Source of the DNA: Muribaculum sp.
Lineage (GTDB): Bacteria > Bacillota > Clostridia > Lachnospirales > Lachnospiraceae
DNA: 40,023 nt
Direction of reading: 5' to 3'
Assembly: GCA_023663735.1 (NCBI GenBank)
Contig: JAMPGV010000023.1
Span: 1 to 40,023, forward strand
Shown: positions 13,347-18,367 of the stretch, piece by piece
Numbering within the stretch: the stretch's first letter is position 1
Layout of the letters: every line of letters starts with the position of its first letter
The notes under the pieces: model-generated
What the model was told of the DNA's origin: nothing
Seen by the model: the letters and a program-made list of their open reading frames with translations, nothing else
Database searches by the model: none
Program-made: the position numbers and the translations under genes

Positions 13347-13396
13347 GTTCAGCTCTTTGTCTCAACCCCTCATCTCAGCCTTTTATCTCAGCCTTT
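13347..13396. repeat. Purine-rich 12-13 bp tandem repeat across the ANTAR gene stop codon
   Basis: Four degenerate copies at 13347-13358, 13359-13371, 13372-13384 and 13385-13396. On the transcript strand the unit reads AAAGGCTGAGAT (two near-perfect copies, two diverged). The copy nearest the gene includes its TGA stop (13390-13388). Confidence 0.65.
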
Positions 13397-13936
13397 CATC
13401 ATAGAAAGCACCATCTGTGCCGTCTCCGCCAGATTGGTTCCGCTGTCCATACTGCATTTTTGCAGATACCGATGAGCCTCCTCCTCGTCCATATGATTGC
13501 GGCTCATCAACAGTTCTTTTGCCAGACGGATACTCTCCGTCTCCGCGTCGCTGCGCACCTTTGCTCCCGGCTGTCTCCTTCTGCGCCGCCGCAGGATCTG
13601 ATCCTCCATCATATGTACCGTGTCGATCAGATCGTTGACCTTCAGCGGCATGGAGAGACACATGATGTCATTGCCATGGCACTCCTGTAAAATCCCCGGA
13701 GAAGCCATCAGCAGCAGCTCAAAACCACAGGGCAGGCATTTTTGCAGCTGGCTGTACATCATATCGGCCAATTTGTAACTACAGATCACAATGCCGTCAT
13801 GCAGCCCATCCGCCTGACTGATGGCCTGTGCGCCCGTCGTACAGCATCCCGTCACCTGACAGCCGTTTCGCACCAAGACATTTTTGATCCCCTTGGCGTC
13901 CTCCAGTCTGGGAAGTACCACTATAATATTTGTCAA
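13388..13936 (-). CDS. ANTAR-domain RNA-binding antiterminator (response-regulator-like)
   Basis: 182-aa protein. Residues 1-115 resemble a degenerate receiver domain (IIVVLPRLEDAKGIKNVLVRNG at the start, IVICSYKLADMM in the middle). The usual acidic phosphoacceptor site is not clear, so control may not be by phosphorylation. Residues about 125-180 are a three-helix ANTAR domain (DAETESIRLAKELLMSR, DEEEAHRYLQKCSMD, LAETAQMVLSMM). ANTAR proteins bind paired hexaloop hairpins in nascent RNA and prevent termination; nitrogen genes are frequent targets. The start is TTG (13936), 5 bases after AGGAGGTG, with no ATG available. It lies 35 bases after glnA and is probably co-transcribed, which makes the glnA leader its most likely target. 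Confidence 0.88.
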   Translation of the reverse strand: MTNIIVVLPRLEDAKGIKNVLVRNGCQVTGCCTTGAQAISQADGLHDGIVICSYKLADMMYSQLQKCLPCGFELLLMASPGILQECHGNDIMCLSMPLKVNDLIDTVHMMEDQILRRRRRRQPGAKVRSDAETESIRLAKELLMSRNHMDEEEAHRYLQKCSMDSGTNLAETAQMVLSMMKG

Positions 13937-13971: not shown

Positions 13972-15303
13972 CTAGTATTTGTACAAATATTCCTGAATCT
14001 CCCACTGGGACACCTGCGGATGGTATCCGTTCCACTCCTCCCACTTGGCCTCAATGTAGTGTTTGGCCACATGATCGCCCAGAACCTGCCGGATAAAATC
14101 GTCTTTTTCCAATTCTTCTATGGCGGCCATGAGACTGTAAGGCAGGTTCTCGATTCCCGCCGCCACGCGTTCCTTGTCCGTCATGGCAAAAATGTTCTCG
14201 TCCACCCGGGCGGGAGGCATAATCCGGTTAGCGATACCGTCCAGCCCGGCCATCAGGCATACCGCCAGCGTCAGATACGGATTCGCGGCAGAATCCGGAC
14301 TTCTAAGCTCGATGCGGGTTCCCGCGTCCTTCACTTTGGGAATGCGGATCAGCGGACTCCTGCTGGTCGTACTCCACGCAATGTACACGGGCGCCTCAAA
14401 ACCGGGAATCAGACGCTTATACGAATTGACCAGCGGATTGGTGACGGCCGCCATGCCTTTCACATGCTTCATCAGCCCTCCGATAAACCAATACGCCTCC
14501 TTGCTCAGTCCCAATTCGTCCGAGGCGTCCGCAAAAATATTTTTGCCGTCCCTGTGCAGAGACATGTTGATATGCATACCGGAACCGTTGACGTCCCGCT
14601 TGGGCTTCGGCATGAAGGTCGCATGGAGTCCGTGCCGTCTGGCTATGGTTCGCACCGCCAGCTTAAAAGTCATGATATTATCCGCAGTCCGCAGCGCCTC
14701 GTCATAACGAAAATCAATCTCATGCTGCGCCGGAGCCATCTCATGATGGGACGCCTCAATGACAAATCCCATCTCTTCCAAAGTCAATACCATGTCCCTT
14801 CTGGCATTCTCTCCGAAGTCCAGCGGCCCGATGTCAAAATAGCCCGCCTGCTCGTTGCTCTCCGTGGTCGGCATTGTATTTTCGTCCGTATTAAAGAGGA
14901 AGAACTCGCACTCCGGCCCCACCTCAAAGGTATACCCCATCTGAGCAGCCTTGGCAATGGCGCGCTTCAACACATAGCGGGGATCTCCCTCAAACGGCTC
15001 GCCGTTTGGACGGTATACATCGCAGATCATGCGTGCTACTTTTCCCTGCTGGGGCCTCCACGGAAAGATCGCAAAGGTAGAATAATCCGGATGCAGATAC
15101 ATATCCGATTCCTCAATACGCACAAAACCGTCAATCGCCGATCCGTCAAACATACATCGATTATCCAGCACGCGTTCCAACTGGCTGGCCGTGACAGCCA
15201 CATTTTTCAGATTCCCGAACATATCCGTAAATTGCAGGCGGATAAATTCCACATCCTCCTCTTCCACCATTCTGATAATGTCTTCTCTGGTATACTGATC
15301 CAT
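13972..15303 (-). CDS. glnA: Glutamine synthetase type I
   Basis: 443-aa GSI enzyme that condenses ammonium and glutamate using ATP. Features: FTDMFGNLKNV near residue 25, FDGSAIDGFVRIEESDMYL (50-70), catalytic glutamates in EVGPECEFFLF (E131, E133), MPKPKRDVNGSGMHINMS, and the ATP-site segment WSTTSRSPLIRIP with ELRSPDSAANPYL. The length equals the B. subtilis-type GSI-alpha enzyme, and no adenylylation insert is apparent. The ATG at 15303 (MDQYTREDI) matches the family start; an ATG four codons upstream is possible, and neither has a strong ribosome site. Two hairpins lie directly before the start and could modulate initiation. It is followed at 35 bp by the ANTAR gene and preceded by a 200-nt structured leader. 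Confidence 0.96.
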   Translation of the reverse strand: MDQYTREDIIRMVEEEDVEFIRLQFTDMFGNLKNVAVTASQLERVLDNRCMFDGSAIDGFVRIEESDMYLHPDYSTFAIFPWRPQQGKVARMICDVYRPNGEPFEGDPRYVLKRAIAKAAQMGYTFEVGPECEFFLFNTDENTMPTTESNEQAGYFDIGPLDFGENARRDMVLTLEEMGFVIEASHHEMAPAQHEIDFRYDEALRTADNIMTFKLAVRTIARRHGLHATFMPKPKRDVNGSGMHINMSLHRDGKNIFADASDELGLSKEAYWFIGGLMKHVKGMAAVTNPLVNSYKRLIPGFEAPVYIAWSTTSRSPLIRIPKVKDAGTRIELRSPDSAANPYLTLAVCLMAGLDGIANRIMPPARVDENIFAMTDKERVAAGIENLPYSLMAAIEELEKDDFIRQVLGDHVAKHYIEAKWEEWNGYHPQVSQWEIQEYLYKY

Positions 15304-15502
15304 CTTCCTTCCCATCCGTGCGCTGCGGTACGCACTCATACAACGGAACGCATTCCGTTGACGTTCTTACACAGTTGAACTCGCCTTTTTATCCAACCTC
15401 ACTCAAATGCGCCTACCGCACGGCCTCCAAGAGTTCCGGACGCCGCCTTAGGCCACAAAAAAGGACACTCTTACCCTTCCCTGTAAGAACGCCCTTGTTC
15501 CA
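15304..15502 (-). promoter_or_regulatory. Structured glnA leader RNA with candidate ANTAR target hairpins
   Basis: Transcript-sense leader of about 200 nt. Hairpin P1 (15501-15486) is GGAAC, hexaloop AAGGGC, GTTCT. After a 7-nt linker, P2 (15478-15461) is AAGGGT, hexaloop AAGAGT, GTCCTT, directly followed by TTTT. The ANTAR consensus is two adjacent hexaloops with A at position 1 and G at position 4, the second near a terminator. Loop 1 fits fully; loop 2 has A1 but A4 instead of G4. The 3' half of P1 can instead pair with a distal copy (CGTTCTTACAG with CTGTGTAAGAACG near 15373-15361), and the 3' half of P2 can pair with GGAACTCTT near 15439-15431. Just before the start codon lies a perfect 8-bp hairpin (15360-15341, CAACGGAA/TTCCGTTG) and a weaker GTGCG/CGCAC hairpin. 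Regulation by the neighbouring ANTAR protein is inference. Confidence 0.5.
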
Positions 15503-15508
15503 GTCTCC

Positions 15509-15538
15509 ATCATATCAATTTCCATGCAGGATTGTCAA
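15509..15538 (-). promoter_or_regulatory. glnA promoter
   Basis: Perfect TTGACA (15538-15533), an 18-base spacer, and TATGAT (15514-15509). The expected start is near 15502, at the foot of hairpin P1. Confidence 0.7.
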
Positions 15539-15647
15539 GGCTTACGGGATGATTTATACGGGATCTTCTTGGCAGATTGCATATTCCGCTTCCCGTTTTC
15601 ATATTCTTTACAAAGAGAAATGCCCGAGAGGGCCAGGGAGTATATGG

Positions 15648-16273: not shown

Positions 16274-18187
16274 TCAGCCCAGTTCCTCCAGCTGTGCCAT
16301 CCACGCCGCAGCGCTGGCGTCCGAAGGCATCCGCAGATCCCCTCTGGGGGACACCGCCACGCTTCCCACTTTCGGCCCGTCCGGCAGACAAGAACGCTTA
16401 AACTGCTGGCTGAAAAATCTCCGGTAAAATGTCTTAAGCCATTTCAGGATCACCGCTTCCTCATACGCTCCCCGAAAAGCCGCTTTCGCCACACGATACA
16501 CTTTGGCAGGCTCGAATCCGCAACGCAGCATATAATACAGGAAAAAGTCATGCAGCTCATAGGGTCCCACCAGATCTTCCGTCCTCTGCGAAATATTCCC
16601 CTCCACAGGCGGCAGCAGTTCCGGGCTGACCGGCGTCTCCAGCACATCCGACAAAATTTCCGTCAGTTCCGCATTGCCGCAATTATCCGCATAATACCGC
16701 ACCAGATGGCGCACCAGCGTCTTCGGCACACCCGCGTTCACACCGTACATGGACATATGATCCCCATTGTAAGTGGCCCAACCCAGCGCAAGCTCCGACA
16801 TATCTCCCGTCCCGATGACCAGCCCGTTTTCCCGGTTGGCAATATCCATCAAAATCTGTGTGCGTTCTCTGGCCTGACCGTTCTCATAGGTGATATCATG
16901 ATTGTCCATATCCTGCCCGATATCTCGAAAATGCACTGTTACCGCCTCTTTGATGTCGATTTCCTCCAAAGACGCCCCCAGAATTTGGGAGAGTTTACAG
17001 GCATTTTCATAAGTTCTGTCCGTGGTTCCAAAACAAGGCATCGTCACCGCCCGGATGCCGCTTCTGTCCAGCCCCAGCATATCAAACGCACGCACCGTCA
17101 CAAGCAGCGCCAGAGTGGAATCCAACCCGCCGGAAATTCCGATTACCGCAGAGCGTAAACTCGTGTGTTCATACCGCTTTTTCAACCCGTATGCCTGAAT
17201 GGACAAAATCTCCTCGCAGCGCCGGTTTCTCTTCTCCTCGTCTGCCGGCACAAACGGCGTACAGCCAAATGTTCTCTCTAATACAGTCTCGCCTATGCAA
17301 AGCGCAAACGGCACCGTCACATACCGCGCCTGAGGCGTTTTGCCAAAAGTCCCCATCCTGCGCCGCTCTGCCAAAATACGATGGATATCCAGCTCTCCTG
17401 TCACGGTCTCCCCCACAAAACGCTTCGACTGCGCCAGAATCACACCGTTCTCCGCAATCAGATTATGCCCTCCGAAAACCAGATCCTGCGTAGACTCTCC
17501 CTCGCCCGCGGAAGTATAGACATACCCCGCCAACAGTCTGGCGCTGGCTGATTTCACCAAAAGCTCTCTGTATTCGTCCTTGCCCACCGTCTCGTTGGAC
17601 GCAGAGAGATTGACGATCACAGTCGCCCCCATCAGCGCATGACTGGTGGAGGGCGGATTTGCCACCCACAAATCCTCACAGATCTCACAGCCCACCGCCA
17701 GCCCGCTCATATTCGTACAACGAAACAGCACATTCGATCCAAAGGGAATCTCCTCCCCCTCAAACACATAGGCTGCCGCTTCCGCATTCCCTTCGGCAAA
17801 GTGTCTTCCCTCATAAAATTCCGCATACATCGGCACATTCACCTTGGGTACCATTCCGATGACTTTTCCGTCCCGGACAGCCGCCGCCACATTGTAAAGT
17901 TTCCCTTCCCGCTCTATCGGAAGCCCCACAAAAACCAGCGCATCTTCTCCCGCCGTCGCCTCTGCCACGACGGACAAAGCCCTCTTTGCCTCCTCCAGCA
18001 GCAATTCCTGCAAAAACAGATCCCCGCAGGTATAGCCTGTCAGACAAAGTTCCGGAAAGACGATAATCTTCGCCCCTTTCTCATAAGCGGCCTTTAATTC
18101 CGCACAAACGGCCTGTGCATTGTACGCCGGATCCGCCACTTTGATTTTGGGTGTGACCGCCGCCACCTTAAGAAAACCGTGATTCAT
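16274..18187 (-). CDS. nadE: Glutamine-dependent NAD+ synthetase
   Basis: 637-aa two-domain enzyme making NAD+ from deamido-NAD+, ATP and glutamine. The N-terminal nitrilase-like glutaminase shows its triad: Glu in VFPELCLTGYTCGD, Lys in VPKVNVPMYAEFYEGRHF, and Cys in VGCEICEDLW. The C-terminal synthetase has the PP-loop SGGLDSTLAL, then MPCFGTTDRTYENA, MDNHDITYENGQARERTQ and GTGDMSELALGWATYNGDHM. Length fits the bacterial type of about 640 aa. The start chosen is ATG 18187 (MNHGFLKVAAVTP), the family-typical beginning; an ATG four codons earlier is possible, with AAAGG close upstream. It follows hslO across 180 bp of tandem repeat, so it may depend on read-through from hslO or a weak promoter inside the spacer. 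Confidence 0.96.
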   Translation of the reverse strand: MNHGFLKVAAVTPKIKVADPAYNAQAVCAELKAAYEKGAKIIVFPELCLTGYTCGDLFLQELLLEEAKRALSVVAEATAGEDALVFVGLPIEREGKLYNVAAAVRDGKVIGMVPKVNVPMYAEFYEGRHFAEGNAEAAAYVFEGEEIPFGSNVLFRCTNMSGLAVGCEICEDLWVANPPSTSHALMGATVIVNLSASNETVGKDEYRELLVKSASARLLAGYVYTSAGEGESTQDLVFGGHNLIAENGVILAQSKRFVGETVTGELDIHRILAERRRMGTFGKTPQARYVTVPFALCIGETVLERTFGCTPFVPADEEKRNRRCEEILSIQAYGLKKRYEHTSLRSAVIGISGGLDSTLALLVTVRAFDMLGLDRSGIRAVTMPCFGTTDRTYENACKLSQILGASLEEIDIKEAVTVHFRDIGQDMDNHDITYENGQARERTQILMDIANRENGLVIGTGDMSELALGWATYNGDHMSMYGVNAGVPKTLVRHLVRYYADNCGNAELTEILSDVLETPVSPELLPPVEGNISQRTEDLVGPYELHDFFLYYMLRCGFEPAKVYRVAKAAFRGAYEEAVILKWLKTFYRRFFSQQFKRSCLPDGPKVGSVAVSPRGDLRMPSDASAAAWMAQLEELG

Positions 18188-18237
18188 ACCGACCACCATA
18201 CCTTTCCGATCATTTTGAAATTATGGAACTGCAAAAT

Positions 18238-18356
18238 TTCAAGACTCCCGATTCTGAGATTTCCGATCTCAAGATTCTCGATTCAAGATTTCCGATCTCA
18301 AGATTCCCGATTTCAAGATTTCCGATTTCAAGATTTCCGATTTCAAGATTTCCGAT
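18238..18356. repeat. 15-bp tandem repeat array between hslO and nadE
   Basis: Eight head-to-tail units, seven of 15 bp and one of 14 bp (18283-18296). The consensus is TTCAAGATTTCCGAT. The three units nearest hslO (18312-18356) are identical and a partial ninth follows; units towards nadE are progressively diverged. On the transcript strand the unit reads ATCGGAAATCTTGAA. The array begins about 5 bases after the hslO stop codon. It is too short-period and spacer-free to be CRISPR. Confidence 0.9.
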
Positions 18357-18367
18357 TTCAAGTTCCA

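Follow-up and report, generated by a model that had tools for sequence, protein, structure and literature searches.

Does the ANTAR protein encoded just behind glnA control the transcription of glnA itself, and if so, through which structure in the leader? The window, i.e. the whole stretch of 40,023 nucleotides analyzed here, carries both genes on the minus strand, and the ANTAR gene is indeed located 35 bp 3' of glnA, as the first-pass annotation had it (Table 1). That annotation described the glnA leader as an apparent ANTAR antitermination switch starting at about the first transcribed base and composed of two adjacent hexaloop hairpins with alternative downstream partners, through which the protein would regulate its own operon. 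The likely start of glnA is the ATG listed in Table 1, which is preceded by GGAAGGAAG, and the upstream ATG of the longest open reading frame is disfavored. We also note that 8.5 tandem copies of a 15-base unit (18236-18366) lie in the window just past the open reading frame 16274-18199, which by eye resembles glutamine-dependent NAD synthetase.

Table 1. Coordinates of the features discussed in the text.
Feature	Position	Strand	Remarks
Promoter TTGACA-18-TATGAT, extended -10 like	15509..15538	-	11/12 consensus matches
Hexaloop hairpin P1, GGAAC-AAGGGC-GTTCT, presumed antiterminator	15486..15501	-	Loop 15496-15491, A1 and G4
Intrinsic terminator, 14 pairs	15461..15496	-	5' arm 15496-15483, apical loop 15482-15475, 3' arm 15474-15461
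T-tract after terminator stem	15457..15460	-	Sequence
Second hairpin of the first-pass annotation, GGGT-AAGAGT-GTCC	15463..15476	-	Drawable, not conserved
Possible shifted-register second hexaloop, AAG-AGTGTC-CTT (A1, G4, 3 bp)	15461..15472	-	Inside terminator 3' arm
glnA, type I glutamine synthetase, 443 aa	13972..15303	-	ATG 15303, TIGR00653
ANTAR protein, 182 aa, TTG start, pseudo-receiver and ANTAR domain	13388..13936	-	PF03861

Promoter and 5' hairpin of the glnA leaders

Leaders for comparison were obtained from the genus (ANTAR-protein match in 80 of 101 genomes), from its relatives (37 of 61), and from 80 named loci, mostly titled Lachnospiraceae or Acetatifactor and including Kineothrix, Lactonifactor and Lachnotalea. 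The 153 fetched loci, minus two that lack a glnA match and plus the window, yielded 152 leaders; removal of 16 that had a promoter below 10/12 or were too short, and of 25 duplicates, left 111. The promoter drawn by the first-pass annotation is borne out in the window, and 136 of the 152 collected leaders, 25 of them being duplicates, have a promoter with at least 10 of 12 consensus positions.

Directly behind the promoter, a hexaloop hairpin with a stem of 4 bp or more, starting 3-14 nt after the -10 element, is found in 93 of 111 distinct leaders versus ~25 in shuffles, so that the first of the two proposed hairpins, the one with the hexaloop AAGGGC (P1), holds. Loops of 3, 4, 8 and 9 nt are likewise above the shuffles (72, 54, 85 and 47 of 111), all below the count for loops of six, and the loop-8 hairpins are largely the P1 stem minus its closing pair; loops of 5 and 7 nt show no excess over shuffles (19 and 15 of 111 leaders). 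When only the stem serves as anchor, G4 is present in 89 and A1 in 81 of the 93 leaders, G1 being found in 10, and in the four leaders without G4 another hairpin had been picked. Anchoring on the loop sequence gives at least four contiguous stem pairs in 93 of 96 leaders, a count that presupposes G4; the claim of a conserved G4 rests on the stem-only anchor and on the gdhA leaders described below.

A 4-bp hexaloop hairpin in this place is missing in 18 of the 111 leaders, in some of them through spacing or loop size only. Upon reading, the element is absent in eight of the 111 glnA leaders (L052, L063, L064, L078, L100, L204, L211 and L222), all of which had been fetched beside an ANTAR gene. 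Six other glnA leaders (L182, L186, L187, L190, L196 and L199) present 5-nt or otherwise altered loops at the place of P1, e.g. GAAC-AGAGC-GTTC, which perhaps reflects a changed specificity of the ANTAR protein.

The 4-bp core of P1 starts 8 nt past the -10 element in the window, where the fifth pair is G-U, and 6-8 nt past it in 84 of 96 leaders. Since this is the usual spacing between the -10 element and +1, we infer that transcription begins at the foot of P1 or no more than a few bases away from it, which supports the earlier placement of the leader structure at about +1.

The first-pass annotation proposed covariance among glnA leaders as a check on both stems; the second stem gives no pair signal, and P1 gives a limited one. 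P1 stem double-change cells number 5 in 67 glnA leaders, chosen for having the stem, versus 2.0 in shuffles, and 9 in 44 mixed leaders versus 4.0; one P1 pair changes from G-C to A-U in 7 of the 44 mixed leaders. As for the number of P1 pairs showing a double change, 126 of 500 shuffles equal or exceed it for the 67 leaders, and 113 of 500 do so for the mixed set. Slid controls reach maxima of 11 and 13 double-change cells, yet only 36-63% of their cells are paired. The covariation of P1 is thus modest.

Terminator overlap and the search for a second hexaloop

The terminator in the window reads AAGGGCGTTCTTAC-AGGGAAGG-GTAAGAGTGTCCTT and is followed by TTTT, in agreement with the stem running into a T-tract that had been noted before. 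The first 11 bases of its 5' arm are the hexaloop and the 3' stem of P1, and P1 and the terminator are therefore mutually exclusive. A terminator that uses the P1 loop and 3' stem is found in all 89 leaders examined, one defect being allowed (39 of 89 have one), and at least four T within eight follow in 88 of them. Four leaders in which a different hairpin had been selected (L100, L113, L114 and L119, of which L113 also shows a P1-like hairpin by eye) were omitted from the 89-leader analyses of terminator, second hexaloop and shifted register. The covariation set of 67 leaders derives from the 81 of 89 with an apical loop of at most 16 nt, thinned to 71, of which 66 were used together with the window; in it the terminator has 63 double-change cells versus 22 in shuffles. 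Loop position 3 swaps G-C for A-T jointly with the other arm of the terminator, and position 4 is constantly G across the 89 leaders. The terminator is far more stable than P1, both in the window (-15.3 versus -3.2 kcal/mol) and in the medians of the 89 leaders (-18.0 versus -2.9 kcal/mol), and it is contained in the minimum-energy fold of the leader; the default state should thus be off, and P1 would need help to form. As judged from these comparisons, the glnA leader is a real, conserved transcription attenuator.

The gdhA leaders add a constraint. Of 34 genomes with gdhA, 30 leaders from the genus were used, and 16 of these carry, near +1, a hexaloop hairpin of 3 bp or more closed by a C-G pair; its loop has A1 in all 16 and G4 in 14. 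A terminator is present in 14 of 16 gdhA leaders with the hairpin versus 2 of 14 without it; in the gdhA leader of the own genome the hairpin is present and the search used found no terminator. In 8 of the 14 gdhA leaders that have both hairpin and terminator the loop lies outside the terminator arm, so the loop is conserved there without that pairing duty. Simple mutual exclusion does not explain the gdhA leaders whose terminator excludes the loop. In the gdhA leaders L342, L343, L344 and L359, the hexaloop hairpin directly precedes a terminator of which it is not part.

The remaining parts of the two-hairpin switch, namely a second loop AAGAGT and alternative downstream partners, fare differently. 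Every piece can be drawn in the window; across leaders, a hexaloop hairpin at the second place occurs in 27 of 89 versus 23.8 in shuffles, with no excess of pair counts over shuffles. The earlier doubt about loop 2, namely its departure from the G4 rule, proves well founded, as G4 occurs in 3 of these 27. The partner GTAAGAACG (15370-15362) is a 9-nt complement to the 5' arm of the terminator in the window, to which it is private: 82 of 83 leaders are without a downstream complement of at least 8 nt to the 5' arm, and the longest such complement averages 4.36 nt over the 83 leaders versus 4.41 in shuffles. The complement at 15362-15370 may be debris of a duplicated leader. The other partner (15437-15429) amounts to merely 6 contiguous nt. 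Some hairpin on the 3' arm of the terminator may matter, since loops of 8, 9 and 10 rather than 6 nt are enriched there (32, 43 and 29 of 89 leaders versus 21.2, 22.6 and 18.9; none of 200 shuffles is as high). With these counts, we regard the two-hairpin switch with loops AAGGGC and AAGAGT as extremely improbable. What stands of the proposed antitermination switch is an ANTAR leader at about +1; the two canonical hexaloops and the downstream partner do not.

Canonical second sites were also sought on either side of P1. A second A1/G4 hexaloop with at least 4 bp occurs downstream in 5 of 89 leaders versus 3.2 in shuffles and upstream in 3 of 89 versus 2.2. An upstream canonical first hairpin was found in 0 of 20 loci of the order set and in 1 of 19 other targets, these loci having been refound by a pattern that contains G4 (5 of 25 and 4 of 23 were not refound); the loop-1 counts of refound loci are, for this reason, no evidence for G4. 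Loop 2 of the earlier reading and an upstream canonical first hairpin, both near shuffle frequency, were rejected, as were the downstream partners. An upstream A1/G4 hexaloop is clear in L293, the one case among the 19 other targets, before a GSIII-like gene judged by sequence, and is seen by eye in L287 (GSIII), which suggests that dual and single hexaloop sites may coexist.

A more serious contender is a dual-hexaloop site made of P1 and the 3-bp loop AAG-AGTGTC-CTT in a shifted register, in which each terminator arm is an ANTAR hexaloop and the protein holds both apart. Such a 3-bp A1/G4 loop is present in 44 of 89 glnA leaders versus 5.7 in plain shuffles, which ignore the terminator. A pairing-preserving null was used afterwards: 39 of 50 unbulged glnA leaders have A1, G4 and at least 3 bp versus 21.9 expected from pooled pairing frequencies, and none of 500 simulations is as high; this null, however, treats the glnA sequences as unrelated, which they are not. 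Among the 60 of 89 leaders with such a loop, 33 have a linker within the 5-12 nt described for eut leaders, and 52 have one of 9-14 nt. Nevertheless, a perfect complement of the 5' arm automatically yields AAG-AACGCC-CTT, the stem has only 3 bp in the window, and 10 of 39 glnA leaders with a bulged or mismatched terminator lack any stem pair in this register. Other targets and families show no excess (6 of 25 versus 5.5 expected; A1 in 14 of 25 versus 16.6), and the wider-set loci for this loop were refound by the pattern containing G4 (3 of 50 were not refound). The shifted-register loop would then largely follow from complementarity within the terminator, and we consider the dual-hexaloop site unlikely, without dismissing it.

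Distribution of the element and the ANTAR protein

In the own genome (~87% complete) the exact P1 pattern, which was written after the leaders had been seen, occurs three times, always in a leader: before glnA, gdhA and a CP_ATPgrasp_2 gene. Weak matches are meaningless, as up to two mismatches give 244 places in the own genome versus 414 for the reversed control. Run on the own genome, the glnA-trained model R1 recovers the leaders of glnA (E 5.8e-12) and of the ATP-grasp gene (4.9e-4) and misses that of gdhA. In relatives, model matches also precede genes for GSIII, amt, P-II, glutamate synthase, carA, glmS, dapF and ABC transporters.

Forty places were fetched, 38 of them from model matches in relatives, and 24 of the 40 are followed by a gene related to nitrogen or amino acids. 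These comprise GSIII (6), ATP-grasp (4), ABC transporter ATPase (4), a glutamate-synthase-like glutamine-amidotransferase protein (2), dapF (2), and one each of ammonium transporter, P-II, glutamate synthase, carbamoyl-phosphate synthase, glmS and alanine symporter; 20 were named by Pfam and one separately, and L280, L282 and L293 were judged from their first residues. The remaining 16 include glnA again (3), gdhA (1, added by hand), the unclear open reading frame L298, and 11 places without a convincing hairpin or a nameable gene (L275, L276, L283, L284, L285, L289, L290, L295, L299, L300 and L302).

Two target genes deserve mention in their own right. In two relatives (L264 and L265) dapF has its own copy of the leader element, and in the window dapF, identified by sequence, sits after the ANTAR gene. 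The element also recurs before a circularly permuted ATP-grasp type 2 gene (L121, L273, L282 and L291; three named by Pfam, L282 by sequence), and this recurrence suggests a nitrogen-related role for that gene.

The ANTAR domain of the protein in the window scores 55.8 bits against PF03861 (Pfam cut-off 27.3), and the protein matches EutV and Rv1626 along most of their length. Ser53 aligns with the phospho-aspartate Asp54 of EutV, and the receiver is consequently a pseudo-receiver. Lys149, Glu160 and Met172, which contact the loop in the EutV complex, are the 3 of 11 named EutV RNA contacts that are identical here, and the corresponding K140, E151 and M163 never vary. EutV Tyr164, which stacks on G4, corresponds to His in 80 of 87 distinct segments, to Tyr in five and to Phe in two, and EutV Arg168 corresponds to Gln.

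Across 196 genomes of the order, a match to model R2 (E ≤ 0.01) is found in 103 and an ANTAR gene in 132, the own genome containing one ANTAR gene. The match is present in 92 of 132 genomes with an ANTAR gene versus 11 of 64 without (odds ratio 11); the p-value of 4e-12 is a guide only, because the genomes are related and some belong to the training set. More generally, p-values are overstated, as leaders adjacent to ANTAR genes formed part of the training data of the models. Outside the own family the figures are 72 of 110 versus 11 of 64. Forty-four of the 92 strongest matches in ANTAR genomes have an ANTAR gene no more than 8 kb away, a number that may be low, as the stronger matches and most, not all, ANTAR places were included.

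These data bear on whether ANTAR is a mere neighbor of an attenuator that is constitutive, with P1 as a 5' stabilizing hairpin, or is controlled by some other factor. The model match in 11 of 64 ANTAR-negative genomes is compatible with this alternative. Against it stand the retention of G4 and A1 under the stem-only anchor, the nitrogen genes downstream, and the co-occurrence and adjacency of ANTAR genes, which together make it very unlikely. Conservation, the shared nitrogen genes and the ANTAR co-occurrence lend strong support to the earlier proposal of autoregulation, in which the ANTAR protein acts on its own operon through the leader, and an ANTAR protein very probably regulates the glnA leader.

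Proposed mechanism and comparison with known ANTAR systems

We think it likely that the leader acts as an attenuator under ANTAR control, in which a single hexaloop hairpin, located at the extreme 5' end of the message, is obligatory. By default, RNA polymerase would complete the terminator stem ~40 nt after +1 and halt before glnA. The active ANTAR protein would grip the 5' hairpin, through the A1 and G4 hexaloop and the C-G closing pair, as it emerges from the polymerase; with P1 held in this way, the 5' arm of the terminator would be occupied, the terminator would not form, and glnA and the ANTAR gene would be transcribed. Binding would thus amount to read-through, and one hexaloop would suffice. 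The location of the ANTAR gene inside the read-through operon would create a positive loop, and the same element would control the other nitrogen genes. As the receiver is devoid of a phospho-aspartate, the nitrogen signal would be relayed by a protein partner.

We call this a single-hexaloop variant of ANTAR leaders, which would be new, with the 3-bp second loop as its rival. Chances appear even that, throughout the order, ANTAR antitermination relies on one hexaloop right at the start of the transcript and dispenses with the recruiting first hairpin, which is regarded as obligatory. If this holds, an antiterminator at the start of the message replaces recruitment, and a very short ANTAR switch (~40 nt) lies at the core of a nitrogen regulon. 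It would also provide a nitrogen-control system, along with a searchable motif, for a family that is common in the gut. An AmiR/NasR-like gene (nitR) follows glnA in solvent-producing clostridia.

No described Rfam RNA accounts for the leader; this candidate was rejected with zero matches in the window at the gathering threshold and zero at E ≤ 1 in 15250-15560. Among the matches listed from the open-access literature, no paper deals with single-hexaloop antitermination of glnA. Known ANTAR antitermination requires two hexaloops (PMC3369931, PMC8934654). Of the traits of a dual-hexaloop ANTAR target, the A1/G4 antiterminator loop, its overlap with the 5' arm of the terminator and an ANTAR gene in the genome are all found here; in place of two tandem A1/G4 hairpins there is one conserved hexaloop. 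The ANTAR protein, for its part, does not have the acceptor Asp of phospho-receiver response regulators.

The EutV-controlled eutP, eutG, eutS and eutA leaders of Enterococcus faecalis (PMC3369931, PMC8934654) resemble the present leader in the A1/G4 hexaloop, the ANTAR regulator, and the overlap of the antiterminator hairpin with the 5' arm of an intrinsic terminator. This is in contrast to their upstream first hairpin, which is required in vivo (PMC3369931, PMC8934654); the hairpin here is located at about +1, no second A1/G4 hexaloop with 4 bp or more is conserved, and EutV is phosphorylated on Asp54, at which the protein here has Ser53. The AmiR-amiE and NasR-nasF leaders likewise represent ANTAR antitermination of nitrogen genes, and AmiR also has a pseudo-receiver (PMC8934654); unlike the leader here, they possess dual hairpins. 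Their signal comes through AmiC or a NIT domain. The ANTAR sites predicted by Ramesh et al. 2012 (PMC3369931) also precede nitrogen genes, glutamine synthetase among them, along with glutamate/glutamine synthase and ammonium transporter genes of other bacteria. That search was seeded with dual A1/G4 hairpins, and single-hexaloop leaders were outside its target. Walshe et al. 2022 (PMC8934654) narrowed the motif bound by ANTAR proteins down to a single hexaloop and ascribed the requirement for two hairpins to a recruitment step; they allowed for single sites where transcription imposes no time limit, leaving their part open. The single-hexaloop sites described here sit where time is shortest, which makes the model of Walshe et al. 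2022 (PMC8934654) directly testable.
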